From assembly GCA_019054805.1 (NCBI GenBank), contig JAHQIY010000001.1, positions 4,726,501 to 4,790,500 on the forward strand: 64,000 nucleotides of DNA, written 5' to 3'. Below the pieces are notes generated by a model that saw nothing but the letters and a program-made list of their open reading frames with translations, did not search any database and was not told where the DNA came from. Position 1 is the first letter of the stretch. Every line of letters begins with the position of its first letter. This DNA is from Brachionus manjavacas (Eukaryota; Rotifera; Eurotatoria; Ploima; Brachionidae). Positions 17,806 through 61,290 of the stretch are shown here, in pieces. The translations under genes and the position numbers were made by a program.

Positions 17806-18193
17806 CAGTGTATTACAAAATTTTAGAAATTAATTATTTTATTTATCTTAAATTGTTGACAAAAAATTGAGTGCACAAGAACACTTTTTTGTAGGATTTT
17901 TATTCTCTTCAATTTGATATTTCACACTTGACGTAAAAGTTTAATTCTGCCATGGTGTGCCTGTTCACCAGATCTCAACCCAATCGAGAACTTATGCTCA
18001 TGAATGGATGCCAAAATGGTTAGCACTAAAGTAGCCTCTATTGAGCATTTAAAAGAGGTTTTACACAAAGAGTGGTCATAGATTCCGACTGAGTACGTAC
18101 AAAATGGATTGAATCTAAGCCAAAAAGATTTATGACTTGTTGTAACGCAGGTGGTCATTTCAAATATTAAATTGTAAAAAGAACAATACACTG
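17806..18193 (+). mobile_element. Internally deleted Tc1-like DNA transposon
   Basis: It begins CAGTGTATTACAAAA after a TA dinucleotide and ends CAATACACTG, so the outer nine bases are inverted copies. Between 17930 and 18175 the plus strand encodes the C-terminus of a Tc1 transposase: a PACSPDLNPIENL-like motif with the third catalytic acid region (SPDLNPIE), then SIEHLKEVLHKEW and IPTEYVQN. In-frame stops and the missing N-terminal two thirds show it is dead. Its right end coincides with the left end of the 10.8 kb element. Confidence 0.8.
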
Positions 18194-18581
18194 TTTCCAT
18201 TGAAATTTTGCCCTTTTATATTTTATTTAAAAAAAGAGGGTTCAACTTAATTTTTATATCAAAATAAAGGTTTTTTACTCATCTTTCGGCAAAATTATCT
18301 AATTTTTTTAGATTTCCAAAAAATGTCAATTTTGGCAAGATGAAAATCTACATTTTTTCATAATAAACTTTACAATTTTACTTGCAAGCAGTCGTTGTTT
18401 CTTTTTTCTTGGTGAAAAAGAATAATTCTCTATTAAGGATTTATTTTGCTTAGAATTGAATTAAATAACAATTTAAAAATAATAAAAAATATCTTTTGAT
18501 AAAAGTTAGATAATTTTTAAATAAAAATTCAGATTAAAGATGCAGAAAACTTAATGAACCTTATTAAATACTTAAAATCTT
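18189..18581 (+). repeat. Left terminal inverted repeat of the 10.8 kb element
   Basis: 393 bp matching the complement of 28628-29023 with only scattered differences. The match extends another 11 bases outward beyond the TA (AAAGAACAA against TTGTTCTTT), which makes the insertion site itself palindromic or places part of the Tc1-like end inside the repeat. Confidence 0.85.
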
Positions 18582-19013
18582 CAAGAATACAACGAAAATT
18601 TTAGCGTTTGAGAGTTATTTTTCTAAAGATTTAAGTTGTAATTTTTATTTCATTTAACAAAAAATAATTTTAGTTACAAAAAGTTTTTAAATAAGATTAC
18701 ATAAATATCTATTTAAAAAAGAGGATAATTTTTGAGTCATCTTCTTCGTATTTTTCAATAATCAAATTTTTTTCCAATTGAAAATAGAGCATTACATATT
18801 AAATTGGACATAGCATATTTTTTAAAAATTGCACATAAATTAATTTATATATAAATTCATTTTAAAAATTTTAGACAAAGTTTAACTGAAGCTAAAAAAT
18901 GAATTTAAAAATCAATGATAAAGTTTCATTTAAAAGATCAAATGGTATAAAATTAATATCATGCATTATAATTAAATATTGTTTAAAATTTTTTTTAAGG
19001 ATTAATTCAAATA

Positions 19014-19526
19014 GGATTTATTAAGAGTATAAATCAAGAAAAATTAGAGCTGGTATGGAATAGTAATCAGAGGACTTTTGCAAAAAATCTTCGAATTGAG
19101 GACGTCAAGCTTGTTAAAAATAAATATTTTTCCCTTAAAACATTCTTAATATCATTGATGGTTGTCATTTTTAGTTTGTTTGGAATTTTGATTGGGGAAG
19201 GTGTTTATGTTAACTATGTTGAACAAGAAATAGCATATAATAAGTGCTTGCCGTATAAAGATTTAAGTTTTTTTGTTTTTTTTTTCACAGACTTTTGTTC
19301 AAAGAGTCCTTCTTTTCTAAGAGCAATCCTTGTTACTTTTTCTGATATAGCTTCTAGTATAGGGCATTGTGGTGGTCTCTACTTAAATTTTTTTTTTAAA
19401 GGATTATTTACAAATGTTGGAATTTTTGGATTTTTTCAAATTGTTATTTGTGTGATCACCTTTGTTATAATTTTTTTAACTTTAATTTTTTTTATATGTT
19501 TATATGCTAGAAAAAAATTAGTGTAA
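19014..19526 (+). CDS. Partial CLCC1-like membrane protein (last exon)
   Basis: An open frame from a likely splice acceptor (TCAAATAG at 19006-19013) to a stop at 19524-19526. It contains a membrane segment (SLMVVIFSLFGILIG), then EQEIAYNKCL, FFTDFCSKSPSFLRAILVTF, a GHCGGLYLNF stretch and a long hydrophobic segment before a basic end. Order and spacing resemble the core of chloride channel CLIC-like protein 1 (a Cys pair, LAVTFTTF-like and G-rich stretch, then a membrane helix). That match is from memory and weak. No upstream exon was found, so it may be a captured fragment or a cargo gene whose 5' exons I could not see. Confidence 0.4.
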   Translation, partial: GFIKSINQEKLELVWNSNQRTFAKNLRIEDVKLVKNKYFSLKTFLISLMVVIFSLFGILIGEGVYVNYVEQEIAYNKCLPYKDLSFFVFFFTDFCSKSPSFLRAILVTFSDIASSIGHCGGLYLNFFFKGLFTNVGIFGFFQIVICVITFVIIFLTLIFFICLYARKKLV

Positions 19527-19579
19527 TATTATTGTTTTTTCTTTAAAAAATAAAATTTTTTTAAAATTTAAATAAGAAA

Positions 19580-20520
19580 AATATTATTTTATGGACCTTG
19601 TTAATGCAGAGAAGTCCGCTATGGGTCTTACTTTCGTCCTGGGTCTCGAGACCAGCAAAAAGTTCCGCAATATCGTTCCTATTTGATCGTTCCGCAATAT
19701 CGGGATGATTCGACTATTCTGGCCTTTTAAAGAGAGACCAGCACGAGTCCTTATCCTTATCGCTGGACTAATTTTGTGCTAATAGCTCTTAATACGAGCG
19801 CAACCAGCTGCCGACCGAATCATGAGACCGTTTTGTAGATTGGCAAAGAGCGCGTGAGTGATTGGAAATTCCTAATGGAAAGATATCTGTGGGTAGAGCG
19901 AAGTAGGCGTCCACCTTTACTTTTTCCCTAGATATAGAGCTGTGAGCTGTGAGACCCTTGGCCTGAATCTGACAATCATCGAACTGGGCGAAAATTCTTT
20001 CGACCTGGTTGCAAAGAAGCTGGTGGTAGTAGGTGGAGGAGGCTGTTGGAGATCCCTCGCCTATTTGATCATTTTCCTTATCATTTTGCTCTTGAAGCTC
20101 GTCTTCCGAGCTTTCTGGATTGTCCATGTACCTCCACGATTCCATAAGGAATTATGGAACATTACTAATTAATTCCATAATTAATTAATAATGTTCGTGT
20201 CTTTGTCCCAGAAGTATTTACTAATTACCGGGCGACCGAACTTCCACTTATGAATTAATGAATAATTAGGGTGATTAGTGGTGGGTGAAAGGATATTGTT
20301 GACTAAATCGATCCCCGGTGTGAGCTTTGCTAGTTCCTTAAAACCGCATCCTGCTTTTTGAGCGAGTGCGAGACTTAGCTGTAGCTGTCTTGTTGCCTCC
20401 TGTTTTAGGAAGCCTTCCTGAGGAGCTAGCAGGCTTTGTGGCTACCACTACTACGTTGTCCCTCTGTGGGATGTAGCTTGCCTTATCTAATGAGAATATC
20501 ATGATCTTCAAAAAAATTTA
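19580..20520. other. GC-richer foreign island inside the transposon, class unknown
   Basis: Roughly 45% GC against about 22% around it, with sharp edges near 19585 and 20510. The minus strand has the most protein-like content, with acidic stretches such as ESSEDELQEQNDKENDQ and a Lys/Arg/Ser/Thr-rich part. It appears broken. I do not recognise the family; a mobile or virus-derived fossil is possible but unproven. Confidence 0.45.
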
Positions 20521-21574
20521 GGGTCCTATCCCAGCTTCCTTTAGAGACTACTTAACTACCAAAACAAAAAAACTTCAATTGTATTAGAATAAAGTCTTTT
20601 AAAGTTTATAATAGTTTTTAACCACAATTATAAAAAACGATTAAAAATTAAATATTAATTATTAAATTTTTCTAATCAATAAGTGGCTCAAGGATACGAG
20701 GTCAGCTTTTTTAATGACAATTGGTGCTATTTGTAGAGTACCACAAGTAAAATTGTGATTAATTTGCAGGAGCATTAGGACTTAAAACAGTCAGCATAAA
20801 AAAATGAATAAGTCTTAGATTTGCAGGTTAAATAAAATTATGAAAGTTTTTAAGTTTTTTAAAGTTATTAAATTCAAATGATTATTGATAATTCATTGCA
20901 TATGTAAATGAGTAAAAAGAGATAATATTTTTTTATTAAGAATTCGAATCCAAATCATGTCACAAAAATATAACATTAAAAAAAACCTATTTATTCTTCA
21001 GCTCAGATTTGGGCTCTTTTTGACATTTGATTTGATTTTTTGGGGTGTTGTGAATTTCAAAAACAAATAGAAAAAAATTCATCATGTTTTGATAAATCAA
21101 AATTAGAGTTAATAAAAAATATTAGAAAAAATAAGGCCACAAACTGCAACAAAGTATGTTACACTTTATCGCCTTAAATAAAATTTTTTTATTCTATTTT
21201 CTGTTTTTTAAATTCACAATACCATTAATGGTAAATAATTTATTTGTTTATTTGTAATTTTATATTTTTGTTAAATAAATGTGAATATTAAATATCTTAT
21301 AAAAAATTCCAATAAAATGATGATTCGTTCGAATTTATCCATCTATTTTCCTGAATCAAAAACCAAGTTCAGATGCAAAAATTAAGATTTTATCATTCAA
21401 GTGAAATTTAAAATTAAACATTGTTTTTTGAAATAAAAGTGATATTCTAAAAAAATGATATTTTTCCTTTTCTCTAAATTTTTTTATCGCTATTAATAAT
21501 CTAATAAAATATACACTATGTTTAAAAAGTTAATTATTGTATTTAGCAAGTAAAAATTTATTTAAAAAAATTAT
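20521..21574. other. AT-rich spacer inside the 10.8 kb element
   Basis: No gene seen. It may hold the 3' flank of the minus-strand homeodomain gene. A GC-richer word GCAACAAAGTATGTTACACT lies near 21148. Confidence 0.4.
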
Positions 21575-22159
21575 TTACATAAAATTAAATTGATTTATTT
21601 TTTTTTTTAATTCTTTTCTTCTTTTTCTGTAAAACCATTGACTGATTTGTCTTCTTGTGATCTCGAGATTCTCTGCCAATTCAGATATTTGTTCTTTTTG
21701 TGGATATGCACACACATTTTCAAAAAATTCATTCAGTTTTATTTCTTCGTTTAATGATATGCGTTTAGACGAATTAAATTTTTTAGTTCTTGAATTTGAA
21801 ATCCATCTTGATATTTGACGGACCGACAAATTTGTTTTTTTAGCTAATTGAATCTTTTCATTTCGAGAAAATCTTTTTTGGTATATGAGTGCATCGTAAA
21901 GAATCCTGCGATTTTTAAAATTTATTCGTTTTTTTGAATTTTTCTTAATAGGCTGATTATCATTTTTCTTGGACTGTTTTTTATTGATAAATGTATTGAA
22001 AACTTTCGATAAACTTCGAAAAGAGACTTTCGAAGAATTAAAAAACATTTTAAAAGCATTGGTAGAAAATCTCCAGCTTAAGTTAGCTGAAGCTCTAAGT
22101 GAAGTGAGTAAAATGTTTGAATAACGAATTAATGCCATTTTAAAAATAATCTTAAACAT
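21575..22159 (-). CDS. Double-homeodomain protein carried by the transposon
   Basis: 194 aa in one exon, start ATG at 22159 (an in-frame ATG at about 22138 is an alternative). The N-terminal 70 residues are basic and Ser/Phe-rich. Two homeodomain-like units follow. The first (residues about 80-130) ends in a recognition helix LSVRQISRWISNSRTKK; the second (about 135-190) ends ITRRQISQWFYRKRRKELKK with the homeodomain W-F-x-x-x-R core. In the first unit the usual WFxNRR is altered to WISNSR. The fold is DNA binding, so a role as regulator of the element or as TIR-binding accessory factor is plausible but inferred. It is transcribed opposite to the transposase. Confidence 0.75.
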   Translation of the reverse strand: MFKIIFKMALIRYSNILLTSLRASANLSWRFSTNAFKMFFNSSKVSFRSLSKVFNTFINKKQSKKNDNQPIKKNSKKRINFKNRRILYDALIYQKRFSRNEKIQLAKKTNLSVRQISRWISNSRTKKFNSSKRISLNEEIKLNEFFENVCAYPQKEQISELAENLEITRRQISQWFYRKRRKELKKKINQFNFM

Positions 22160-22262
22160 CAAGATAAAAAGATTAAAATAAAATATTGGAATAATAATTA
22201 TATCAAAAAAAATCTAAAATTAAAATACTAACGACAAGAAAAAAATTTTTAAGGTAAAAGAT

Positions 22263-22757
22263 ATAGAATTTGGAAGAAAAAACCATAATTTTTATCTTTT
22301 CTAAAGATATGTTTTCTGCCTTAAAATAAGATTTTTTAGTATAAAAATCTTTATTGAGGTCAATATCGATTTTTTATGTTAAAAAAATAGAATTTGGAAG
22401 AAAAAACTATAATTTTTATCTTTTTTAAAGATATGTTTTCTGCCTTAAAATAAGTTTTTTTAGTATAAAAATCTTTATTGAGGTCAATATCGATTTTTTA
22501 TGTTAAAAAAATAGAATTTGGAAGAAAAAACTATAATTTTTATCTTTTTTAAAGATATGTTTTCTGCCTTAAAATAAGTTTTTTTAGTATAAAAATCTTT
22601 ATTGAGGTCAATATCGATTTTTTATGTTAAAAAAATAGAATTTGGAAGAAAAAACTATAATTTTTATCTTTTTTAAAGATATGTTTTCTGCCTTAAAATA
22701 AGTTTTTTAGTATAAAAATCTTTATTGAGGTCAATATCGATTTTTTATGTTAAAAAG
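22263..22757. repeat. Tandem repeat, four copies of a 124 bp unit
   Basis: The unit starts ATAGAATTTGGAAGAAAAAA at 22263, 22387, 22511 and 22635. Copies two to four are almost identical, the first slightly diverged. Each unit contains TTATCTTTTTTAAAGATA, an inverted repeat. It lies between the divergent homeodomain gene and the plus-strand genes, so it may be their shared upstream region. Confidence 0.95.
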
Positions 22758-22874
22758 TAAGAATTTTCGCTGAAACTTGATTCAAAAAAGATATTCTTAA
22801 AAATATAATATTTTTTTATTTCGATAAAAAAGTTGTAGTAAAATAATTTTTTTTCAAACAAAATCTAAAAGGAG

Positions 22875-23668
22875 ATGCAATTATATATTTTTTTTCTTTT
22901 TTTATTTTGTTTAAATTTCAAAAAAAGTAAAACTTTATCATCTGCCCATATAATTTCTAATAAAAAAAATGTAAACACTGAAACATTTTCTAGTCATTTT
23001 CCTCCAAACACTTTTCATGGTGTAAGCAACGCTGTGGCATGTGATGATAAACTTCGTTGCCTAAAAATTATTGAATTTTCAATATCTCCAAATCATTCAT
23101 TGAATTGTTTCGACAAATATCTACCAATTATTTTTGGCGATTCTCAGATTGGTTTTTATCCACGGGATGGAGGCATTTTATTTTACCATCAAAAAAATTC
23201 AGAAACATGTCAAAAAATTAAAAGGTAATTTTTGATTGCAGTAAATTTTAATTTTCTTACTCTAATTTCTTTTGTTAGGTTTAAAATAAATGAAGAACAA
23301 GTTCTAATTATAATTAGGGAAACAATAGCAATTAGCGACATAAAAAATGTAGAAGAGACAATTGAATGGCTCTTATTTAAAAATAATGAGTTCGCTTGTT
23401 GGCTTATGTTCTCATTTGGATTATACGATGAAGAAAAAAACAGAATTTTTTATTTTGTTGGATTAAAAGTATTTTTTTTTATTTGAAGATTTGAATTTAA
23501 AATTTGTTATCTATTTAGGATCTAGTGTTTATCGGAGCTTGTCTTCTTACAGTGAAATCTATTTATACAAAACTGTGCATAATTTACATTTGTATTAAAG
23601 TTTTAACAGAAGAATCAAGAGTAAAATGTCAGATAAAAAAAGTTAATGAAACCAAAAAATCAAAGTAG
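22875..23668 (+). CDS. Secreted or membrane protein of the transposon (unrecognised)
   Basis: Three exons, 22875-23224, 23279-23468 and 23519-23668, joined by GT-AG introns of 54 and 50 nt, give 229 aa in a continuous frame. The N-terminus is a strong signal sequence (MQLYIFFLFLFCLNF). The mature part has paired cysteines (ACDDKLRC, LNCFDKY, SETCQKIK), suggesting an extracellular or ER-lumenal fold. The last exon begins with a hydrophobic DLVFIGACLLTV segment and ends in a basic tail, so a single-pass membrane protein is possible. No family recognised. The intact splicing and frame contrast with the damaged transposase next to it. Confidence 0.65.
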
Positions 23669-23815
23669 ATTTTTCAATTTTTTTTTGTATTTTTTTCAAA
23701 TAAAAGTTTAAACTATATTTATTATATCACTCTAATCGATAATAACACAAAATATTATTTTTATGAAATTTTTAAGAACTCAATCTTCATTTTTTAGATA
23801 AAAAAATAAATTAAA

Positions 23816-26800
23816 ATGTCCACGAAAAAGATAGAAACAGCTATAAATTCGCATAATTGCTGTTTTATTTGTAGACGGAAGCGTTCTGATAGGATTAAAC
23901 TGCGAACAATTAATAAAAATTCAATTATTCATGCATTCAAAATGAAAAGAATAATTATTGATGAAAATGCAAGATGCTGCAGAAACCATCTTGATAATAA
24001 TGGTTGTATTAAAGAGGAACTTTATGGTCAAATTCGTACAAAAAAAAAATTATAAGAATCAATTAATAAAAATGTTTGATATGTTTGAAGTCGGTGAAAA
24101 AAGTGTGTTTGAAAAATTTAAAGATATTTCTTCTGTTCAAGACTCACATTGTATTGAAATTACAGGTTGGACAAAAAAACAATTTTTAGACTTTTCTAAA
24201 TTCATCACTAGCATAAAAAATAGTAAAAATCGTTCGAAAGAACAGCTGATTGCTCTTTATCGATACTGGTTAAGAACAGGAACAAACCAATCAGTACTTG
24301 CTAAAATTTTTAAAGGGATGTTCTCAACAAGCCATTAGTAAATACTTGTCTCAAATACGAAAGGCAATAAACGATGATTTTGTTCCATTTTTTCTTGGAG
24401 CTGATAGAAAAAGAGAATTTTTTTGAAACACAACAATGAAATGGTAACAGAACTTCTATCAATTAAGAATGAAGAACTTGTTATTGTTTGTGATGGTACC
24501 TATACTCGCATTGAAAAAAGTCAGAATAATAACTTCCAGTATAAAAGTTGGAGTGTTCAAAAATCAACATCATTACTTAAGCCTTTTATTATATGCTGTA
24601 GTGATGGATATATTATTGACTGTTATGGATCATTTTCTGCAAATATGAACGATGCTTGTATATTTGAATATATATTGAAGACAGACTTAGCTCTAAAAGA
24701 AAAGATTCTTCTTCCTGGAAAAACAATTATCTTTCTCGATAGAGGTTTGTAAAAATTTATAATTTGCACTAAAGAATTTTATTATGTGAATTGTTAAAAA
24801 TAAAAGATTTATTTAAAAGGATTTAGAGATGTCGTATTACAACTTAGAGAAAAATACGATTTTGATGTAAAAATTCCAACTTGTCAGCAGTTTTTAAATA
24901 ATGATTTGGATGAGTCTAATTTAAAATCTAAACAGCTTTCTACCAAACAGGCTAATGAAACACGAATGGTAACAAAGGTAAATTAAATTATGTTTTTTTA
25001 TTAAAATTTTATTTGATTAATTAAGTGTCGATTCATAGTTGAAAAAAAAATCGGCGAAATTAAAAAATTTAGGGCTTTAGAAAATGTTCGAAATACAGCT
25101 ATTGGTCATATTCAAATTGACTATCGAATAGCATCAGCAATGATTAATTTCAGCCATATTAGTTGTTCCCCTGATGGAAATCATGGAAAAAAATTGCGCG
25201 AAGAATGATTAGAAAATCAAAAATAACCAAGAATGAATTAGAGTTTTTAATAGGAAAACATTTGGAAACAAAATTGATAGCATCTATTTCGATTTCAAGT
25301 ATTGTTGATTTTCCAATTCTAAGACCAAAACAAATGATGAGAAAGTTATTTCTTGGATCATATCAGTTAAAGCAAGCTAGAGCCTACGCTGATGACCTTT
25401 TATTTAATAAAACAGCTTACATTGTTAGCTCAAGATTGATGAAGAATATGTCAAATAGGGTTTTAACTGATGAATATGAAAATTCAAAAATCCTTGCATT
25501 TGAAATAATTTCACGTCATAGAAGATCTAAAAAAATCTAAAAGATATTGGGCAAACCAGCTATGTTAAACAGTTTAAAAATACATACAAAGTTTTTATCA
25601 AATATATACCTGGATTAAATCATTCGAAGTCAATTCAAGGTAAATTCAAAATTTTACACTATTTACTAGGTAATCTTTTGATTTTAATTTTTATTTAAGC
25701 TCATATATGCACATGTTTGTCAGGTCGTCGAATAGTCGGATGCTGTAGCCATGTCGCAACTGTGATTTATTATTTAAGCTATTTAAAATATAGAACACCT
25801 GGTATCATATCAAAAGGAAGACATTTAAACGAAATTCCTATCGATATACAGAATCAACAGTTGCCTAACAAACCGAAAAATATTAAATGAAAGAGAAGTA
25901 GAAAAGAAAGTTCAAGTGATTCGGAATATACTACTAGTTGTTCAGATTCAAGTGATATTGAAATTGAAATCCTTCAAAAGGAATTGAATCAAACTCATGA
26001 AATATCATCAAACGATTTAACAAGTATTGAATCATTCAAAAATCACATACCAAAGTGGGGAGCTTTCATTGAATACAAAGGGGAAAAAAACGTTTTTGTT
26101 TCAAAAACTTGCTCAATTGATTATATTCTTTTAGCATTCTGGTATCTTTATAAAAAAAATTCTTCTTATTTTCAAAATATAATAAGTAACAAGTTGACTA
26201 TAGTTATAAAAGACATTATAGATGAAGTGGATAAAAAGAATTTCGATAAAGCTAAAGAATTATGGATTAAACAAATAATGAGCTATGATACAAAATTAAA
26301 TTTTTCTGAAAATTTTATTGAAATATCACTTGATAATAATGAAGAAGATAATTTTTCAAAGAATTTAAAAGAATTTCAAAAGTATGTATTTATTCAACAA
26401 AGTTGTTCAAGATGTGAAAAAAATGAGAGAAATATTCCCAAAGAATCTGATGTCATACTTTTTAAAAAATCTAATTCAAAAATTAAGTTATCAGCTGAAA
26501 ATGAAGAAAGATGCAAGTCATGCAAGTTGACTTTTGAATTCAACGTTAAATTTTTTAATCAGCCTACATTTTTGTTTATAAAATCAGCAGAGAAGAACAT
26601 TTTTATCCATGAATTACCAGATGTTATAACATGTGATAATAGAAACTATAATTTTCTTTGTGCAACTTTAAACAAACCAGGCCATACTGTTTCAATTTTT
26701 AAGCTAAAAAATGATTTTTATGTGGTTGATGACATATATAAAACTGTCAAAAAATTATCTAAATATGGAAAAAATCTGAAAAAGAAGAGAGATCATTTTT

Positions 26801-26856
26801 ATTTTCAAAAAGCAACCATCAGTTATTCATTTTATTATTTAATCAATAGTTTTTAA
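23816..26856 (+). pseudogene. Multi-domain transposase: Zn-binding, HTH, DDE, SWIM and USP-like peptidase
   Basis: Domains in order. 23816-24055: zinc-binding N-terminus (CCFICRRKR ... CCRNHLDNNGC). About 24060-24420: HTH region with LAKIFKG and SQQAISKYLSQIR. 24420-25200: DDE nuclease with VCDGTYTRI, IIFLDRGF and KKIGEIKKF as the acidic positions, split by two introns (24745-24822, 24979-25025 approximately). About 25700-25770: SWIM finger CTCLSGRRIVGCCSH, after another intron. 25984-26856: peptidase-like domain with a Cys box (SKTCSIDYILLAFWYL), two CxxC pairs (CSRCEK, CKSCKL) and a His box (PGHTVSIFKLKNDFYVVDD), the layout of USP/USPL1-type ubiquitin or SUMO peptidases. About four frameshifts, mostly at A or T runs, and one stop break the frame. 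DDE_4/IS5-like assignment is from memory. Confidence 0.78.
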
Positions 26857-27241
26857 TTTTTTTTAAAATTTTTTTGAATAAACAAATTATTAATTCATTT
26901 TCTATTTACTAACATTTAAACGTTATAACAAAAAAAAAAATTTAGACGTATGTTGATTTTTTAAATATATGTTGATAAGTAAAAAAATTAAATATTAATT
27001 ACAACTAATATATTTACAAAATTTTAATGGATCGCAGCAAATTTTTTACAATTAAATTATACAAAAAGCAACAAAGACAATTAACCAGAACAAGTTAGAA
27101 GGAAATATTAATACAAAAACAATGGATCAGAAACATGAAACAGGATGAGAAACTAATTCTCTTGTTCTGGTTGAATCAGTATCATTTAGTTTTTCTAATT
27201 TAAAATGTTCCCTTAAAAATTGAGAATTTTCATATTGGTTT

Positions 27242-27924
27242 TCATAAATACAAACATCCTTTTAATGAAATTGTGTAAAAAAATGCCATTTTTTTATCTT
27301 TGTAAATTACTTCGAAGCTATCGTCATTTGTCTGATTATACACTTCTTCAGAAACGATTGCAGATTGAAGCTTAAAAAAAATTTTGCTTATTCTTTTATA
27401 AGATATTTTTGAAAAAACCTCGTTAAGATCTCTCAAAAATGCTTTGGCAAATTTTGGTTGTGCGCACAGACAAGGCTGTCGATCAATTATAGGAACATTT
27501 TGGTCCTGGCCCTTTAAAAATATTTAAAAGGAAAATGCAAGACAATTTATTACCAAAATCTGATTCCGATTATCAGCTGAAAAACGTGAGACACCATTTT
27601 GACCAATACTTAAGTTCAAATCTGAATTTGGGTTCTTAATTTAAAAATAAAAAAATTGCTCAGCTTTTAGAAAAAGAAATTACATTTTTTTGAAAAATAA
27701 TTTTTTTTCAGTAATGATACAGATAAGCAAATTAAAAATACAGTCAAAAGAACTATAAAAAATCTGGTCATTGATATCATATTTATATCAATTCTGATAT
27801 CTATTGAATTTTTAGAATTGTTCAAAAAGTTTGAAACTGTCAAATTCGTTGAAATCGAAGACTTTTTAGCTGCAATTTTTGTACTTGACCAAAATTTCTC
27901 CAAAAACGCATTGAACGAACTCAC
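27242..27924 (-). CDS. Small single-pass membrane protein of the transposon (unrecognised)
   Basis: Three exons on the minus strand, 27924-27684, 27621-27554 and 27511-27242, with GT-AG introns of 62 and 42 nt, give 192 aa in a continuous frame. The N-terminus is cytosolic-looking and Ser-rich (MSSFNAFLEKFWSS). One membrane helix follows at about residues 50-72 (FFIVLLTVFLICLSVSLL). The C-terminal part has a CLCAQPKFAKAFLRDL segment and a helix-rich remainder. No family recognised. It converges on the transposase gene from the right side of the element. Confidence 0.55.
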
Positions 27925-28627
27925 TTTATAAAAGAAATATTAATGAAAAAAAACAAGTTGAAACCGGATGGTAAAGAAAAGCTTAAAGAAACTTTTTGAG
28001 TAAAAAATAGATTAGAAAAGAAGATCAAAATACAAAGAAATCGGTTCAAACTTCTTTTAAAACAGATTTCATAAGGCCATTAAAATTTTGAGCTAGGTTA
28101 AAAAGAGACTGACTGAAATTTCAAAATCAAAAAATTCATTTTTTAAAATGACTAATCATTTTTTGAAAATTTTGTTTCAATAAACAATTAAAAAAATTTT
28201 TCTTGAGATGTATGCTATAATTTTTTATTAATTTTAAATCATTAATATGGAAAAAATAAATTGAAAATAATATTTCAAAATGAATATTGACAAATGAAAC
28301 AAAATAAAACTTAACAAAAAGTTTAAATATTTTAGATTATATTAAATTTTTAATTGCTTTTGCTTTCCTCTGCGTTACTGGTTTAAATTCATTTTTTTTC
28401 ATTTTTATTTCTTTTTAAAAAGTAGTCGATAATTGATGAAAAAATTTATGATCAAAAATAAGTAAATTATTGATAATCCAAAATACTTTAAATTATTTAC
28501 CTTTTTATTTTGGTAAAGCCTTTAAAGGGAAATAATCATTTAGATAAAAAAATTTTTCAAATCATGAATATCATCCCAAATAAAATAAATCATTGTTTTT
28601 TAAAAATAAATTAAATAAATATAAAAT
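27925..28627. other. AT-rich spacer before the right inverted repeat
   Basis: No gene seen. It presumably contains the promoter of the minus-strand membrane protein gene ending at 27924. Confidence 0.4.
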
Positions 28628-29023
28628 AAGATTTTAAGTATTTAATAAGGTTCATTAAGTTTTCTGCATCTTTAATCTGAATTTTTATTTAAAAATTACA
28701 TAACTTTTATCAAAAGATATTTTTTATTATTTTTAAATTGTTATTTAATTCAATTCTAAGCAAAATAAATCCTTAATAGAGAATTATTCTTTTTCACCAA
28801 GAAAAAAAGAAACAACGACTGCTTGCAAGTAAAATTGTAAAGTTTATTATGAAAAAATGTAGATTTTCATCTTGCCAAAATTGACATTTTTTTTGGAAAT
28901 CTAAAAAAATTAGATAATTTTGCCGAAAGATGAGTAAAAAACCTTTATTTTGATATAAAAATTAAGTTGAACCCTCTTTTTTTAAATAAAATATAAAAGG
29001 GCAAAATTTCAATGGAAACAGTG
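28628..29023 (-). repeat. Right terminal inverted repeat of the 10.8 kb element
   Basis: 396 bp, reverse complement of 18189-18581. The outer end is GGAAACAGTG followed by TA. Confidence 0.85.
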
Positions 29024-29873
29024 TATTGTTCTTTCCAAACTTTTGAACCGTTTTTTTTACTTGATTTTCTTATGATTTTTTTTTCACATAATTTTTTTTG
29101 GTTTTATGTTATGGATTGATAACAAATAAAAATTTAAAAAAAAAAACATTTTTATTGTTATTAATTTATTTATTTATTTAAAAATAGCCACTTAGGCCAG
29201 CTGCTTGGAGATTGCACGCTCTCTTTTTAGAAAATAAATCGCTTAAGAGATTGAGCTTTAATTAAATAAAATAGAAAAAAATTTAAAAATTTTAAGTAAT
29301 GCATAAAAATAAATAGAAATTTCTAGTAATTAAATTTGAAATTTTCATTGATTAATTTAAAATAGTTTAATAGTGAAATTTCAAAATTGATTTTGTTGGT
29401 TTGCTTTTTTTATTTACCCGCCTTTTATACGTAAAAACAATTCTTTAGTTAACCAAAAAAAATTTCTAAATTTTTACAAAATACAGTATAAGAAAGCTAT
29501 GATTTTAAGTTTAATTATTTTTGGTCTGCATCCAAAACTAATTGAGCAAACTAATGTAATTACATCAAATAATATCCTTACCATGTTTTAGATAGTTTCC
29601 CAAAAAAGTAAAAATTAAAAAACATTGAGTTTCGAAAAAACTTTAAAGGATATTAAAGCGTGTTTCCTCTAGTTTCCAAGGTACATATTCGATAGTCTAA
29701 ACTCATCCGACTAAAGATTTATATAAATTTCCTAATGTATTTTGATTTGAACAAGGTTTGCTTTCTTTTACCATCTGCACTCTCAAATTAAACAATTACA
29801 AAACTTATTTATTTAATTAAAATTAAAAAAAAACTCGTTCAATAAAGAGGTAAAAATAACTTAAAAAATAAAA
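29024..29873. other. Spacer between the transposon and the MSK gene 3' end
   Basis: AT-rich. A GC-richer word at 29187-29222 (TAGCCACTTAGGCCAGCTGC) next to an ATTT-repeat looks like the 3' end of an unidentified retroelement on the minus strand. No gene. Confidence 0.4.
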
Positions 29874-32800
29874 TTAATCAATTAAAATAGTTGAACATCT
29901 TTTAAGTCGTTTGAGAGCGGGAGGCTGCAACTGAACACACTGGGTCTCTTCTTCATCTCTGGCGATATCGTCTTCCTCTTTCCTAAACTCGACCAGTTTG
30001 TTATTGTGATTAGTAATTGATCTAGTAATAGGCCTATTGAAAACTTGCTGATGCGAATTCAGCTGAGTTTCCTGCTGCTGCTTTAGGTAATCATTGACCA
30101 AGGTGTCGTTGAAATTGAACACTTTTTTTTCATCCAACTTGCCACACGAAGACGGACACTTCTTGGTCGGTGTGCCGTTCAAAACTAAGCTCAAGCTGGT
30201 GGTTGTGGTGTTAGTGGTGCTCAAGGACGAGCACGAAACAGTGGTTGACGATGATTCGGATGAAGCGTTGGACGAGGTGGATCGCTTCAAGTAGCGCCTC
30301 TGGGCCAACGGTGCTTCGAACACATTTTTCAGCTCAATTTTGAACAGGCCGTCCTGTTCGGCCTTGTGATAGGCTTTGAATGCTTGTTTGAATTTGTTCT
30401 TGAGGCCCGAATCGGACACTGTTGCCACAATGTTGTTCGAAAAGCTTGCCGATGAGCGGATCCACTCATTCCGGCCAAGGTCTTTTATTTTCATTCTTTT
30501 CTTGGGATCAACATTTAGCAGACCTTTTATCAAAGTCTTGGCCGAGTCGCTCACACTCGACCAGTATTCTTTCTTAAAGTCCAAATTGGACACATTGCGG
30601 ATTTTGTCTATGATTGCTTCTTGGCTCACTTGATTTGTTGACGCATCGAAGGGCACGTGACCGCACAACATTGTGTACAATATGACGCCCAGACTCCACA
30701 AGTCGCACGACTCGTCGTAGCCGTCCGAACCTTGGCCGGGATTGAGCAGCGCTTGGTTGAGGACTTCGGGCGCCGCATACGACAGAGTAAAGCATGGTGT
30801 GTGCAATTTTTGACTTTTTGTGATGTCCGGCTTGCACTTGGCAAAGCCGAAATCAACAATTTTTATTCTTAAATCAGTTTTATTTACAAAGATTATATTC
30901 TCTGGCTTGAGATCGCGATGCACCACTCCTTGGGAATGCATGTACTGAATGGCCGATATGAGAGATTTCATTAGTTGACTAGCGTCTTTTTCGGTGAACT
31001 TTTTCATTTCCCTAAGTCTGTCGAAGAGCTCGCCGCCCGTCAGCAGTTCCATTATGATGTAGGTGTGCAGGTCGTCCTGCAGCACGTCGAATAGCTTGAC
31101 TATGTTGTCGTGTCCCTGGCATTTGGATAAATATTTTACCTCGCTTGTTGAATCGTATTTCACTCGACTTATTATTTTTACAGCAAAGAATTCGCCGGTC
31201 TTTCGGTTCCGACACTTTCTGAAAAAAAAAAATTTCATACAATTTTTTGCAAAAAAATAAAATAAACAAAAAATTTTAGTTCTAATTTTTTTAATTTAAT
31301 GGTAGTATTGTAAAAACGCGCTTGAATACCCTTTTATTGGTTCTATGAGAGTTGGAAATCAAACTGTTCAATTTTTTTTAATTTAAACTAAAAATAAAAG
31401 TAAAAACTGGGAATTTTAATCACAGTGAATTTTCATACAAACCTTTCAGAAATTACAAAAATAAAATTCTTTTTCATTAATTGAATTTTACAAAATTGAG
31501 CTTTATAAACTTTAATGATGAAATTTCATGAAACAAAATATGATCAACAAAAAAAATTAATTTCAATAAGCACAGGAAATGTAAATTACCAAATAAAATA
31601 TGAATATTTTGAGATTTATTTTTTTTTGAGATATATTATGATCTATTTTAATTTGAATTTTTTTTTCAATTTATAAATTTGTTTTTTTTAATTGATAAAA
31701 TTCTATCATCGCTTCTTAAATAATATTGGTAAAATTTTTAATGTTAGTAAAATTTTTGATAAATTAAAAGCCTTAGATCAAAACAAAGCTATTGGCCCTG
31801 ACAAGATCTGTAATAGGGTTCTGACAAAGTCTCTCATCGCAAGTTGCTTTATAAGCTTAAATTTTATGGTTTTGGTGAGAAATTGATACGATGGATCAAA
31901 GATTTCTTAGTTAGCCGTACCCAAAGAGTGGTGTTGGGAGAGCATCAATCTGTTTGGACCATGGTAACAAGTGGTGTACCACAAGGATCGGTCTTAGGAC
32001 CTATACTGTTCATTATTTTTATAAATGACATGCTGGAGATGATCAATTTCCATTGTGAAGCTTACGCTGATGATACCAAGATGATTTCAGTCATAAAAAA
32101 CTTAAGGTCTATGGAAACATTACAGAAAGATTTGGATAATGTGGCAAGATGGTCTAGTGATTGGTCTACTCAGTTAAATGCCGATAAGTGTAAGATTGTA
32201 CATTTTGGAAGGCTAAACAAGAAATTTGACTATGATATTCAATTTGGCCCAAGTAAAAAACCATTATTCAAGTCAGATTGTGAGAAAGATCTTGGGATAT
32301 ATATAAATCATGATTTAAAATGGAACGTCCAAATACGAAACTGTACAGCGAAAGCAAACAAAATATTAGCCATGATTAGGAAAGCATTTAAATTCCGAGA
32401 AAAAAATAATATCAAGCTTCTTTATACATCGTTAGTGAGACCGCACTTAGATTACGATATTAGCACTTGGTGTCCGTATCTCGAGAAAGACGTTATCGAA
32501 CTAGAAAAGGTGCAGAGAAGAGCCACAAAACTTATTTCAGGGCTTAAAAACCTTGACTATGCGCAACGTTTAAAAGAACTTGGACTTAGTGATCTAAAAA
32601 CAAGGAGACTACGAGGAGATCTAATTCAAATGTACAAATTGGCAAACAATCTAGTGAAAGTGAATTTTGTAAATGGACTTGAAATCGGTTATGAATCAAG
32701 CTACAATTTAAGAAGGCACAGAAAATCAATGCATCGAGAGCAAGTTAGGAGTTGTTTACCAAGATTTAACTTTTTTGTTAATAGGGTTGTGAACGATTGG

Positions 32801-35800
32801 AACAGTCTGCCGGTGGATGTGGTCGAAGCAAGAAGTTTGAACTCTTTCAAATCGAAACTTGACAAGTGGATCTTTGAAAATCGCGAAGTATCTGCTACAG
32901 CTCAGGAGAGCTTGCTTGAATATTATTCAAGTTGCAGATTATTTTTTCTACTACTACTACTACTAATATTGAAATACATATAATTTGACTAAAAATAATC
33001 AATATATTGGCTAATAATTCTTTAAAATATTTAAATTTGATAAATAAATTTAAAAATAAATTCGACAAAATGAACTTAATAAGCTTAACATTCCAGCGAG
33101 TCTTAAGAGCTCGTTTAATGTGGCATATCCACATCATTGCTAATTATATTATTTATTTATAGATCATTTTTTATGTATTTTTAATCTCCTTTTATTTTTT
33201 TTTGATCACAATCCAAGAAAATCAAATCAGAATTTAAACTTTTTCAATTTAAATTTAAAATGAAATATTTTTTGAATAATAAGAAAAAAAAATTCTTTCT
33301 TAAGAAATTTTATTTTCATAAACCTTAAAAATTAAACTTTAAAAATATTCCTTCTTATTGAACTTTAAGAGGTTTAAATTTTTAATTAATTTTAATAAAA
33401 ATACTTAGAGACAAAAAGATTAAAATAATTTTTTTTTATTTTTTAAGAAATTAAAGAATTCATTCATAAGATTAATTAAGTTTTAAATCTTTAAATGATA
33501 ACTTAGATCTTAAGATCTGATTTGTCAAGCTAATAATAATATTAGTCTAACATTAAGGATGCTTACTTTTTTTTATATTTGATTTATTTTTATAAATAAA
33601 TAAAATTTTTTAAAAAATTTCGAAATAATTTGACCTTATAATAATACTACAAATAAAAATAATAATAATAATAAAAAGCTACGACAAGCAGGCTTGCTAA
33701 ACTAGGAAGACATCTATGATAACTATTTATCTTTTCTTTAATTTATTTTATTTTTTTTATTTTTTTTGCTTTATTTTTATTTTTATTTTTTTTCAATTCT
33801 GAGGGAGCTCAAGCTCGGTACAGAAAAACAAATAAATAGATACAGACTTTCGCATTAGGCCAAAATTTTTATTTTCGAACAAAAGGTTGTTTCACTTATA
33901 AAATAATAATATTAGTCTAACATTAAGGATGCTTACTATTTTTTATATTTGATTTATTTTTATAAATAAATAAAATTTTTTAAAAAATTTCGAAATAATT
34001 TGACCTTATAATAATACTACAAATAAAAATAATAATAATAATAAAAAGCTACGGCAAGCAGGCTTGCTAAACTAGGAAGACATCTATGATAACTAGATGC
34101 ATAGAAATCTTGTTAAAGAGATTAATAGTTATCTATTCATAACTAGTACAATCTTTAATTTTTAATAAGTAAATGAAATACAAAACTAAATTAAGAAAGA
34201 TATAAAAAAGAGCTTGCAAATAAGAGAAGATTCAGGGGACTAATTACTGACTGATAAACCAAATTATTTCTTTTGTCAATTTCAAAAAAAGAACTCTATT
34301 TAAATTAAAATTCGAATTTAAATTCAATTATTTTTAAAAATTAAAAATTAATTTCAAATGCGATTTTTTTACTATTTAAATTTTTTTTTACAATGAATGA
34401 TACTGATTTTTTTACACTTCTTAAGACCGGAGGGATATTATGCGAAACAAGCGTTTATTTAGATTTTTTTCATAAACATTTGGCAACTGAAACTTAAATA
34501 AACTCATTACCCAAATTGAACATGAAAACCTATTTCTTGATGAAGAAATTTTGAAAATTTAATAATCAAAAAATTATTTTTTTTTATTTTTTTTTATTCT
34601 GTTTTTTATATTTATTTCAGACTTTTGAGATTCAAAGTAAAAATCGTTTGTTACAAAAATTGCATTTTTTAGAGAAAAAAAAATTTATCATTAAATCAAA
34701 TCATTTGATTGTACAATGTCTTTTTTATGGTTTTATTTGTATTTAAATTTACTTTATTTTTAATTAAATGAAAAACTTCAATTTTACTATTCCTTTTGAA
34801 GGTTAATTTAAATGAATTAAATTAAATAAATTAATATTACACCCATTTACTCCTTTGATTCAAAAATTAAAAATTTACAACGGTCCCTACTTTTAATATT
34901 ACTTTACTATTCAAAAAAATTAAGTTATTCCAAGCCTTTGTGCTTTTCTTTTTTAACTTAATTTAGTTTTATTCAAAAAATCTTGGATAATTACATTTCC
35001 ACTCTTGTATCTTCTTAGATTTTTTAAATTCTCCAAACAATTGCAAACTCAATGAATTTAGTTCAGGTTTTCAAATAAAGTAAAAATAAGCCAACATGCC
35101 TAAGTACTGGTATGTACTGGTTTATAAGAGAATAAAATTTATTCATGAACTTTTATATTTAGAGTGAATATTTATGGAAAACTTTATTTTAATTATAATA
35201 AAATGAAAATTTTTTAAAATAAAATAAAATGATATTTAATCAAAATTGGTGATTTTTTAAAAAAATTTCTAAATTGATATTAGAATGTCGCTAAGTTTTC
35301 TTTCCCAGCAAGTAAGTTATAATGAATTTTTATACTAAAACTGCACATTAGCAATTTTTTATAAGTTTGTAATATATTATTTATTGTGTAAATAATTTTC
35401 AAAATTAAAATATTTCAATAACATCTTTGAATATAGATTCCTTATTTTATAAATACTATAGCGTAACTTTTTCTCTTCTTCCATCTAATATATATGCTTA
35501 ACTTTCAAAAACTACATGTCAATATAAAAAAAAATATATATCATTTATTACATATCTATTTATCTTTTCTTTAATTTCTTTTATTTTTTTTATTTTTTTT
35601 GCTTTATTTTTATTTTTATTTTTTTTCAATTCTGAGGGAGCTCAAGCTCGGTACAGAAAAACAAATAAATAGATACAGACTTTCGCATTAGGCCAAAATT
35701 TTTATTTTCGAACAAAAGGTTGTTTCACTTATAAAAAAATTCACGATGACTTTTAGTTTACAAATTCAGCATTTGAATTTATAGATAGTAATATTTCAAT

Positions 35801-38534
35801 ATTTAAAGCATAAATAAAATCAAATATTTGTTTATTTTCTTCCATGATCTAAATTGATAACCTAAAAATTTTATGATGTATTTTTAAGATTTTATTCGTG
35901 TAGAACTCTTAAGTGCTAAAATTTATCTAGTCTTTCTAAAATTGTTAATTCTATTTTTAGACATTCTAAATTTATCATGAGATCGTTTTGTGTGTAACTT
36001 TTTCTTTTCCAAGGTTAAAAATAATGATCAAATATGATACGACTAATTGAATTTTTTAGACACCCATTTTGAATTGAATTGACAATTGACAAAGCTTTCA
36101 AGTCATGGTCAATCGGTACGTTCTAGAAGCTCTACGTTGCATTTTTAAGACCTTTTCTCGAGTACGCCGTAACTACTTGGTGTCCGTACTCCAAAAACAC
36201 AATATTGCTCGAGAAGGTACAAATAAGAGCAACAAAATTAATTAAGTCACTTAAGAATCTATCATATGAGAAGAGATTAGAGAAGTAGGGGCTCAGTACG
36301 CTGAGTAAGAGAAGAGAAAGAGGAGATCTAGCCTAATATTACAAGATGGTTTAACTAAAGTAAATTGGCACAATCCAAACAAATTTTGTGATTCGATCAG
36401 CTTTTTTGGTCTAGCGAGAAGTAAACGCGGATACCAACCCAGAATGGCCAAACAACTGACAATATCAGCCAACTTAACAAAGTAGTAGACAACTGGAACA
36501 GATTGCCTATTGAAGTAGTCAAAAGGAGTTGAAAGAACTTATTTAAAAAAACGGTTGACGAAATCAATTCGTCGCGCCAGTCAATAGTGAATGATTCACT
36601 CTGTGAAAGCTACCATAGCGATCCCTATATGGGGCTTCGTTTGGTGGAATAACCCACCATAGCTTATTGTTATTATTAATTTTTTTTGAATCTTTTATTT
36701 AATCTTATGTGTATGAGTCTTGAATTAATAAACAAAAATAGTAATAAAGGTAAAGCAGTGAGACATCAGCAAAAAATTGCACACAGTTTCCACTTGCAAC
36801 ATTCGATTTTGATATTTTTTTATATACTTTATCACAACCTGAATTTTTATTGAACTTGAAGCTCAATTTCAAAAACTATTTTTAATTTAAAATTAGCAAT
36901 AGCATGTTTAATTAAAACAAGGAGTGTACAAGATGTAGAAGATGTCCAAACTTTTAAAGATAACAAAAAAATAGTTTTCTGATTTGATCTTGAAATTTTT
37001 TTCATTTTCTTTAAAAAAATCAAAATTCAGAATTATCGTTAACAATATCAAAGATGTACAATTGATCCTGAGGAATAAAATGATAATGTTTTGTTTTTAT
37101 ATTGTGTTAGTCTTCTATTCTTTTTCGTATTTATTCTCAATTTTCAAAAATTATCTATGTTGAACAAATATTTTCTATTTGATCAGACTGCATTGAAAAT
37201 GTAACAAAAAAAAGTATTACTTGCATACACTGAACGATCCTTCACCTAAATTGGAACCGAAATCAATTTCATAAAGCTGATTAAACGCAGAATTCTATTC
37301 GGAGAGCAAAAAAATTCAACAAAATTAAATTTAAAATTGAAATAAATTTTTCAATGCTTGCCTTGAGCCATTGATTTATACTTGAGCTAAAATTGGTCTC
37401 TGCACTTGACTGATCATCAGTTATGATGTTGCTACTAAAAATAATTGAAGGCGCCACGTAAGAGTAGCCGCGGAAGACACTGTCGGAATTAATGGCAGAC
37501 GGCGGCAACACAGCCGGCGAATCAGTCGCAATTTGCTTGGTAAATTCCTCAGCAAAGTTATTTGTATCCAGCTCACTGCAAATACTGGGCTTAAACGGAG
37601 CGTTTACTTTTTTTTCCAACAAATCGCTCCATGCAATGCCCTCAAAAAACAGGTGAGATTTGACCTCTGCTGCACCGCTTGAGCCTAGTCGCCTATTTGG
37701 CTGTTTGACCAAAAGTTTGAGGACAAAGTCTTTGGTATTTTTGGAAAAAAATCTGGGCACAGGAGGCTGAGTCTTGAGAATTCGTTTGGAAATATCAGCT
37801 GGTATGTTTTTTTCACCCTCAACAGTGAATGGAGAAGCGCCAGTCAACAACTCGTATGTAAGCACGCCCAGCGACCACCAGTCAACTGCAAAACCATGTC
37901 CCTGTTCACCTTGGATCAGCTCGGGAGCCATGTACTCAATCGTTCCGCAGAACGAATACGTCCTCTTGTCACTGTTCGAAACATGAAACTCTTTGGACAG
38001 GCCGAAGTCGCACAAGCAAATGTGGCCCTCTTGATCAAGCAGAATGTTCTCAAGTTTGATGTCTCTGTAAATTATACCCAGTTGATGTAGATGCTCCAGA
38101 GCCAGTGTGATCTCGGCAGTGTAGAATCGCACCTCTTGCTCATTGAAGCGTTCTCGTTTGAATAGATGAGTGAAGAGTTCTCCGCCTCTGATGTATTCCA
38201 GAATGAGATGAAGCTTAGCATCGGTCTGAAAGGCATAGTACAATTTGACTAGAAAGGGCAATTGTCTGATTGATTCGAGCACTTGACGCTCTGTTTTTAT
38301 ATGCTCGGTAGTCTTGGCTTTCTGAACAATGTTGGCTTTTTTCAAGACCTTCATGGCATATAATCTGTTTTTGTCTTGACCGTCAATTTTGCGCACCAAA
38401 AACACTTTTCCATAAGCTTGAACAGAAAAAAATTAGCAATTTGAGAGGGATAGTCACAAAAGCTTACCGCCTGTTCCCAGAACTTTTAGCAATTCGAAAT
38501 TTTTCATGCCCACTTTTGACAATTGATCAGACAT
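29874..38534 (-). CDS. RPS6KA5: MSK-type tandem kinase (mitogen- and stress-activated kinase)
   Basis: Four exons, 38534-38468, 38416-37362, 37294-37221 and 31218-29874, give 846 aa in frame (human MSK1 is 802). The start MSDQLSKVGMKNFELLKVLG matches MSK. The N-terminal AGC kinase has GTGAYGKVF, IIYRDIKLEN, CDFGLSKE and SFCGTIEYMAPE (T-loop Ser), then the hydrophobic motif FRGYSYVAPSI. The C-terminal CaMK-type kinase has GEGSFSVCKK, VVHRDLKPEN, VDFGFAKC and TPCFTLSYAAPE (MAPK-site Thr). The tail has APLAQRR, a Ser/Thr-rich stretch and GTPTKK. MSKs are nuclear kinases activated by ERK/p38 that phosphorylate histone H3 and CREB. A4 and A5 cannot be told apart here; an ancestral single MSK (fly JIL-1) is likely. 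The intron between exons 2 and 3 starts GC, not GT. Confidence 0.94.
31690..32990 (+). mobile_element. LINE with RT core, 5'-truncated, in the MSK intron
   Basis: Plus-strand ORF2 C-terminal two thirds. RT pieces: ALDQNKAIGPDKI, then after an internal deletion and frame change near 31840, FYGFGEKLIRWIKDFL, SGVPQGSVLGPILF and the catalytic AYADDTKM. Downstream are NADKCKIVHFG, YTSLVRPHLDY, VQRRATKLISG, RRLRGDLIQMYK and NDWNSLPVDVV. No endonuclease domain remains. The 3' part ends in (CTA)n near 32950. Jockey/CR1-like. AT-rich like the host, so older or better adapted than the GC-rich copies. Confidence 0.92.
33527..33724 (-). repeat. Repeat A copy 1 (LINE 3' end with (AAT)n)
   Basis: About 195 bp nearly identical to 33902-34098. 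On the minus strand it has the family 3' end AGTTATCATAGATGTC ... GTCGTAGCTTTTTATTATTATT, i.e. the hairpin-bearing tail of the LINE group also seen at 13437. Confidence 0.85.
33725..33901 (+). repeat. Repeat B copy 1 (second LINE family 3' end)
   Basis: About 175 bp nearly identical to 35559-35737. It has the hairpin CTGAGGGAGCTCAAGCTCGG followed by TACAG and an A-rich tail. The same hairpin, diverged, ends the LINE at 60454-61290. Confidence 0.85.
33902..34098 (-). repeat. Repeat A copy 2
   Basis: Same as repeat A copy 1 with a few changes (GCTACGGCAAG against GCTACGACAAG). It directly follows repeat B copy 1, giving the order A-B-A. Confidence 0.85.
35559..35737 (+). repeat. Repeat B copy 2
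   Basis: Nearly identical to 33725-33901, including the T-rich start, the GAGGGAGCTCAAGCTCGG hairpin and the end CAAAAGGTTGTTTCACTTATAA. It stands alone, which defines the borders of repeat B. Confidence 0.85.
36075..36690 (+). mobile_element. Decayed LINE C-terminal fragment with hairpin 3' end
   Basis: Translates, with many stops and frame changes, to LEYAVTTWCPYSK, LLEKVQIRATKLIKSLKNL, LSTLSKRRERGDL and a WNRLPIEVV-like end. The 3' end is AGCTACCATAG ... CCACCATAGCTTATTGTTATTATT, the family signature. Confidence 0.85.
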
Positions 38535-60453: not shown

Positions 60454-61290
60454 GTTTTATCTGTGCCGAGCTAAAGCTCCTTCAGATTAAAAAATAAAAT
60501 AAGATAAAATTAAAAATTAGGACAAAATAAAATAAAATGTAAAGAAAAAATATAAGAAAAATTAAAATAAGTTAAAATATAATAATAAGACAATTAAAAA
60601 TTGATAAATTGTAAGAGGTGACATGTAAAAAGTATTTAAGTTTTGAACAGTTCAGGAAAGAAAGAAGAAATAGTAAGATAGCAATTACACAATGGAGTTG
60701 GGTATTCAACATACCTTGATTCAAAACCCGCTTTATACTCATCAACCAGCTTAACAACCAATCGAACAGAATGACGCAGTCCTCCCGCTACATATCTTTC
60801 GCTCAATTCAAAAAGTCGATTCGAGACAGTTAAGAATTCAAGTTTATTAAAGGCCTCATGATGCAAAATATTGGAAGGAGTATCATATTTTAGTATAAGT
60901 ATAAAACGAACTGCTGAGTTTTGTAAGACTTGAATTTTTTTAATGTTTGTCTCTGAAAATGAATTTAGACACGGAAAAGAGTAATCAATTGGAGATCCGA
61001 TTAAAGATTTATATAGGTTTCCTAGTGTGCAATCATTAAGACCCCACGTTTTGTTTGACAATGTTTTTATTAAGTTCAACCGTGAACTACAACGCTGTTT
61101 TATTTCATCAACCATTGGGGTAAAGGTTAATTTTGAATCAAATTTTGTACCTAGAAACTTGATTTCCTTTTGACTCTCAATTTTATTTTCATATATTTTT
61201 AATTTTAAGTCAATATTTTCCTTATTATATTTAGTGAAGACAATGAAGCAAGACTTTTCAACAGATATTTTCATCTTCCACTTGAAGAGC
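60454..61290 (-). mobile_element. Second-family LINE, 5'-truncated, with hairpin 3' end
   Basis: The minus strand encodes 212 residues of an RT C-terminal region: EKSCFIVFTKYNKENI, KFLGTKFDSKLTFTPMVDEI, CTLGNLYKSLIGSPIDYS and LQNSAVRFILILKYDTPSN, then ELSERYVAGGLRHS. This is a different LINE group from the RRATKL type. The frame is open to its stop at 60636. The 3' UTR runs to a hairpin AATCTGAAGGAGCTTTAGCTC followed by GGCACAG and an A-rich tail near 60450-60480. The RT core and endonuclease are missing. Confidence 0.85.

Follow-up and report, generated by a model that had tools for sequence, protein, structure and literature searches.

A large multi-gene transposon, probably of Spy type, in the rotifer Brachionus manjavacas

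We analysed a stretch of 64,000 nucleotides from the rotifer Brachionus manjavacas (assembly GCA_019054805.1, contig JAHQIY010000001.1, positions 4,726,501 to 4,790,500; hereafter the window) and the element of about 11 kb that lies within it. The results suggest that this element is a Spy-type cut-and-paste transposon, within the PHIS superfamily, that has been active recently and is probably autonomous, a reading to which we assign a probability of about 0.85. We use the Spy-type label because insertion at AAATTT without target-site duplication, together with a DDE_Tnp_4 transposase, is the published Spy signature in those parts of the Spy literature drawn on here. A sequence-only reading of the window had already proposed a mobile unit with inverted arms, a DDE_4-type transposase and cargo genes on both strands, and these proposals were borne out by the results below.

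The inverted arms were found where they had first been read, and the true ends proved to be 8 bp further out. The bases AAAGAACAATA to the left and TATTGTTCTTT to the right of the first-read arms recurred in 15/15 copies, which adds 8 bases to each terminal inverted repeat (TIR), followed by AAA or TTT. The TIRs thus measured 401 and 404 bp, and the left and right repeats were identical at 399 of 401 aligned bases. We queried the window's own 114-Mb assembly with the arm and scored the best 40 of 87 candidates, so that all copy counts are lower bounds. Among the scored matches, 32 had 98–100% identity, showing that the arms are not unique, and the other 8 had 91–94% identity, all of them on contig C24. 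Thirty of the 32 near-identical arms formed 15 inverted pairs, corresponding to at least 15 full-length copies with end-to-end spans of 10,715–11,218 bp, and 2 arms had no partner. The 15 paired copies with the same ends had 14 distinct 60-base flanks per side; copies G and H shared theirs as parts of a duplicated segment, and the left flanks of copies D and M recurred at the two lone arms. Each copy differed from the window by 3–12 mismatches (0.04–0.17%) over the 6.4–7.8 kb counted per copy and by 17–43 gap bases; these counts and the indel counts given below took in only matches spanning at least 60% of a segment, so that the latter lack copy M in 1 of 5 segments. Because the copies are so little diverged from the window and stand at 14 distinct flanks, the element is young and mobile. 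As a separate observation, about 90 kb of C24 (687000–776000) held a cluster of diverged (about 80–94%) and rearranged relatives of the element.

Every copy was arranged as AAA, element, TTT (15/15). Other units of the satellite arrays that house copies M and I served as empty sites, and both read AAATTT at the position of the element, with no base duplicated. When the flanks were joined at the empty sites of M and I, the scores were highest with AAATTT (225 and 212), followed by AAATT (218 and 205), AAA (212 and 199) and nothing (203 and 190). Since the empty sites read AAATTT and AAATTT gave the best score, insertion falls between AAA and TTT without target-site duplication. The TA flanks expected from the sequence-only reading were not confirmed, and a TA target duplication was rejected: TA sits inside the TIR, and neither the copies nor the two empty sites had a target-site duplication. 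The coordinates of the element and its parts are collected in the table.

Table. Features of the element in the window. Splice sites of the genes were placed by eye.
Feature	Position	Strand	Remarks
Whole element	18181..29031	.	10,851 bp; ends common to 15/15 copies; 2 empty sites
Left terminal inverted repeat	18181..18581	+	starts GAACAATACACTG; aligned to right arm
Right terminal inverted repeat	28628..29031	-	aligned to left arm
AAA, left target-site half, outside the element	18178..18180	.	15/15 copies; AAATTT at 2 empty sites
TTT, right target-site half, outside the element	29032..29034	.	15/15 copies; AAATTT at 2 empty sites
ORF1, KIF2A-N-like (SH3/Tudor-type) start and two transmembrane segments	18899..19526	+	exons 18899-18944, 19000-19526
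ORF2m, frame of 118 amino acids	19789..20145	-	within the 44% GC stretch 19594-20560
Double-homeodomain protein	21575..22162	-	Homeobox_KN, two stretches, best E 6.8e-12
124-bp tandem array	22263..22756	.	4 units in the window copy
SEC, predicted secreted/membrane protein	22875..23668	+	exons 22875-23224, 23279-23468, 23519-23668
Transposase	23816..26856	+	exons 23816-24744, 24820-24977, 25026-25639, 25700-26856; DDE_Tnp_4
SWIM-like motif C-x-C...C-x-H within the transposase	25712..25760	+	Pfam SWIM E 0.053, below cut-off; kept in homologues
Extra C-terminal transposase domain, about 280 amino acids	26017..26853	+	Cys / zinc-ribbon / His / Asp order
MINUS, predicted single-pass transmembrane protein	27242..27939	-	hydropathy; exon limits uncertain; relatives in the genome

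The transposase, of about 953 amino acids (aa), matched DDE_Tnp_4 in Pfam with an expect value (E) of 5.7e-7, which passes the cut-off, and the codons of its catalytic triad were located at 24492 (D), 24738 (D) and 25041 (E). A search with the transposase, carried out among the best 7998 candidates by common words, returned 12 proteins, of which nine belonged to B. calyciflorus and one each to B. plicatilis, Mytilus edulis and an unnamed source. The frame at 25984–26856 was rejected as a separate (protease) gene, as copies E, M and O have one 385-aa open frame that includes the SWIM-like motif; judged from these frames, it forms the C-terminal portion of that enzyme's gene, the transposase. 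A search with the extra C-terminal domain returned 4 proteins, the query included, with the B. plicatilis protein P0013 newly found. Six aligned sequences of this domain kept the Cys, further zinc-ribbon-type cysteines, GH and VDD. In a larger alignment, in which 5 database sequences are shortened or gapped at the Cys or Asp positions, C13 and P0001 had both the Cys (changed to Ser) and the following Asp replaced, and P0010 also had that Asp replaced. USP-type (C19) peptidases have the order Cys, zinc fingers, His and Asp, which we take the residue order of the domain to resemble; no Pfam or PDB family, USP included, matched the domain. At C1:124577-126622, a single open frame of 1073 aa matched the DDE part at 42% and the extra C-terminal domain at 30%, and by this likeness it is a distant relative, intronless in that part. 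Elsewhere in the genome, an amplified family of about a dozen closely similar frames, mostly of 274 aa, matched the initial section of the UCH peptidase profile; its members lay on C52, C4 (3.7–22.7 kb), C28 and C16, several of them consecutively on C52 and close to the beginning of C4.

Beyond the transposase, the element has at least four further genes, on both strands: ORF1 and SEC on the plus strand, and the double-homeodomain gene and MINUS on the minus strand. Three of these encode predicted membrane or secreted proteins. The start of ORF1 matched the Pfam family KIF2A-like_1st with E 0.0017 in the window, short of the cut-off, and with E 4.6e-7 at the start of protein P0006, which exceeds it. 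ORF1 also had two transmembrane segments by hydropathy, and relatives of it were present in the genome. SEC had a hydrophobic start, judged by eye without a signal-peptide program, and, by hydropathy, a single hydrophobic segment close to the C-terminus. Pfam scans gave no known domain to account for SEC, MINUS or the transmembrane part of ORF1, a Pfam scan of ORF2m gave no family over the cut-off, and no RNA family in the element reached the gathering threshold. The stretch around ORF2m (19594–20560) had 44% GC, as opposed to 23% for the remainder of the element; it occurred in 17 near-identical copies, with parts at 67–96% elsewhere in the genome, and is perhaps an old nested insertion. The 124-bp array separates the homeodomain gene from the SEC gene, the two being divergent, and varied from 3.2 to 7 units across the 15 copies.

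We compared the gene set with those of diverged relatives. The cargo is not confined to a fixed locus: it moves with the element, as shown by the 14 flanks, and recurs beside related transposases. A search with SEC returned one protein, from B. plicatilis, with 95% identity over 79%. Together with the transposase and C-terminal-domain searches, this points to a Brachionus host not far from B. plicatilis. Alignment of eight SEC sequences, some of which are fragments, showed that four cysteines and an N-x-S/T sequon (N-glycosylation) were kept in 8/8; as the window and P0014, and likewise C10 and P0013, form near-identical pairs, the eight represent about six lineages. In P0006, P0008, P0010 and P0013, a SEC-like part lay ahead of the transposase within one gene model, and P0006 began with an ORF1-like part (E 0.002). 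SEC and the transposase adjoin each other in diverged families of this genome as well as in proteins of B. plicatilis and B. calyciflorus. At C10, the order was homeodomain (minus strand), SEC (plus) and transposase (plus), with identities of about 31%, 36–39% and 35–55%, respectively; the left end of the C10 element was not found, and its right end was represented by one fuzzy match. C13 kept SEC and the transposase, and one of its ends reads AAAGAACAATACGC. At C4, matches to ORF1, SEC, DDE and the C-terminal domain followed in this order from 1049.9 to 1060.8 kb, as judged from match positions only. The ratio of nonsynonymous to synonymous substitution rates (dN/dS, NG86) was below 1 in all nine computable pairs. 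With dS at or near saturation, it was 0.13 (C13) and 0.35 (C10) for SEC, 0.27 (C13) and 0.31 (C10) for the last transposase exon, and 0.11 for DDE (C13; not computable for C10). The genes seem to be an ancestral set of the lineage rather than randomly captured.

C13 also had a 124-bp array on the same side of SEC (C13:3167350-3177000 and beyond), with at least 79 units and reaching the end of the fetched stretch, and this array is possibly a transposon-born satellite. The C13 and window units aligned with a score of 37, the highest score among 200 mononucleotide shuffles being 36. As this likeness is marginal, we limit the claim to period and position.

Several results weigh against an active, autonomous transposon with an ancestral gene set. 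Neither ORF1 nor MINUS had a tblastn match in the C10 or C13 stretches (at C13, a transmembrane frame resembles MINUS by eye alone), and the homeodomain had none in C13, whose fetched stretch stops inside the repeat array. Against the C24 copies, dN/dS was only weakly below 1 (0.32 for MINUS, 0.45 for ORF1, 0.56 for SEC and 0.72 for the transposase N-terminus), a pattern compatible with copies that are relaxed or decaying. Among the 15 copies, transposase exon 1 was open in 0/15, exon 2 in 14/15, exon 3 in 1/15 and exon 4 in 3/15. The indels in five segments bear on these frames: 247 of 250 events fell in homopolymers at least four bases long, and of the 116 indel sites 61 were each confined to a single copy. 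Because almost all indels fall in homopolymers, the broken reading frames are likely to be assembly errors or uncorrected long-read errors, which the pattern suggests and does not prove.

We propose that the DDE_4 transposase recognises the TIRs of about 400 bp and places the element at the midpoint of AAATTT with no base duplicated, so that the element would be moved by its own transposase. The double-homeodomain protein may act as a DNA-binding helper, by analogy with the presumed role of the second protein in sister groups, and the 124-bp array could be a regulatory region common to both divergent neighbouring genes. The least certain part concerns the secreted and membrane proteins. That they act on host membranes or surroundings and thereby favour the spread of the element is a speculative and rather doubtful proposal. 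It is considerably less likely still that SEC, cysteine-rich and sequon-bearing, forms with the two transmembrane proteins a module that lets the lineage pass between cells or individuals; if it did, the element would be a transmissible one founded on a transposase rather than on a viral genome.

The strongest rival explanation, which we nevertheless regard as unlikely, is that the cargo genes are passengers, that is, host or foreign sequence that became enclosed by the TIRs of an otherwise ordinary Spy element and contributes nothing to the life cycle of that element. One or two open reading frames (ORFs) suffice for the movement of Spy as described in the part of PMC11304231 drawn on here, and the absence of a known domain in SEC, MINUS and the transmembrane part of ORF1 would agree with passengers, as would the lack of ORF1 and MINUS matches at C10 and C13. 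However, SEC is the transposase's neighbour in two other named species and several diverged families, its cysteines and sequon are kept in all eight sequences, and its dN/dS was 0.13 against C13 and 0.35 against C10, at saturated dS. Somewhat less probable is a non-autonomous or dead family that is mobilised in trans by the transposase of another element while its own genes decay. This would explain the frames broken in most copies and the rearranged, fragmentary relatives on C24, but the copies are near-identical save for homopolymer length, and long open frames persist in diverged relatives (611 aa at C10 and the 1073-aa frame at C1).

Long TIRs, several genes distributed over the two strands, a protease-like domain and predicted membrane proteins might also suggest a viral or Polinton-like element in disguise. 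Polinton/Maverick elements encode a protein-primed polymerase, a retroviral-type integrase, a packaging ATPase and a capsid. Pfam scans of ten frames and further pieces of the element found no family of polymerase, integrase, ATPase or capsid, although short or broken frames could hide one; together with the DDE_Tnp_4 transposase and the absence of target duplication, this makes a disguised virus very improbable. Segmental duplication or an assembly artefact in place of transposition would fit the like flanks of G and H and the lone arms that repeat the flanks of D and M, but can practically be dismissed, as 14 distinct flanks per side meet the element at the identical base and empty sites exist.

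Outside the element, frames in the window at 344–976, 31844–32983 and 60636–61274 resembled the ends of long interspersed nuclear element reverse transcriptases, and kinase-like frames lay to its right at 29874–31238 and 37281–38405; all were judged by eye, without a family search.

If the Spy-type reading is correct, the element would add a rotifer to the three animal phyla given for Spy in the sources drawn on here, and would show that a non-duplicating cut-and-paste element can carry a conserved multi-gene programme. It also raises the testable question of why a transposon retains predicted membrane proteins under selection. The array of at least 79 units of 124 bp, at the same place in the sister element C13, hints at how a transposon might give rise to satellite DNA. 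Satellites drive genome-size differences in Brachionus, according to the part of PMC8447722 consulted, which gives units of 154 and 143 bp for B. asplanchnoidis; the 124-bp unit differs from these in length, and we claim no direct link. Titles and abstract openings of open-licence articles in PMC, the scope of our literature search, to which closed papers and Repbase did not belong, gave no Spy element in a rotifer and no multi-gene Spy element.

Compared with known systems, the element is closest to Spy. In the portions of PMC4482050 and PMC11304231 that bear on it, Spy makes no target duplication, prefers AAATTT, has TIRs of 5–691 bp and one or two ORFs with a transposase of about 700 aa, and occurs in Arthropoda, Cnidaria and Mollusca. 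Our element shares the DDE_Tnp_4 transposase, the AAATTT target and the absence of duplication, and its TIRs of 401/404 bp fall within the published range. It differs in its larger transposase with a SWIM-like motif and an extra C-terminal domain, in its four or more further genes and 124-bp array, and in its rotifer host. The proposal of a new group of giant DDE_4-type elements therefore stands in part: the element is large and multi-gene, but its insertion signature is that published for Spy, and its size of about 11 kb, although large for a cut-and-paste element, is below the 20-kb limit adopted in PMC6431247, as far as the consulted part of that article goes. A large multi-gene lineage of Spy type is the better description, with the assignment to Spy made from DDE_Tnp_4 and published descriptions of insertion features. 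At the protein level, the Mytilus edulis protein P0012 (686 aa), which is 28% identical over 63% of the query, resembles the transposase in having DDE_Tnp_4 and, close to its end, a weak match to SWIM; it matches the last transposase exon only in the SWIM part (residues 4–36) and is known as a protein alone. ISL2EU and PIF/Harbinger have DDE transposases related to this one and also encode another protein that binds DNA (PMC4482050), but they duplicate their targets (AT and TWA, respectively), whereas the element here duplicates nothing, and their second protein is of the YqaJ or Myb/SANT type, whereas the DNA-binding cargo protein here has homeodomains. The enlarged CACTA elements of Chondrus crispus (16–20 kb, 4–5 ORFs; PMC6431247, same part) likewise carry ORFs beyond the norm of their superfamily, but belong to another superfamily and another host; the likeness drawn here is one of ORF number. 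Among rotifer elements, the Terminons of bdelloids reach up to 40 kb, but they are Penelope-like retroelements at telomeres, without a DDE transposase.

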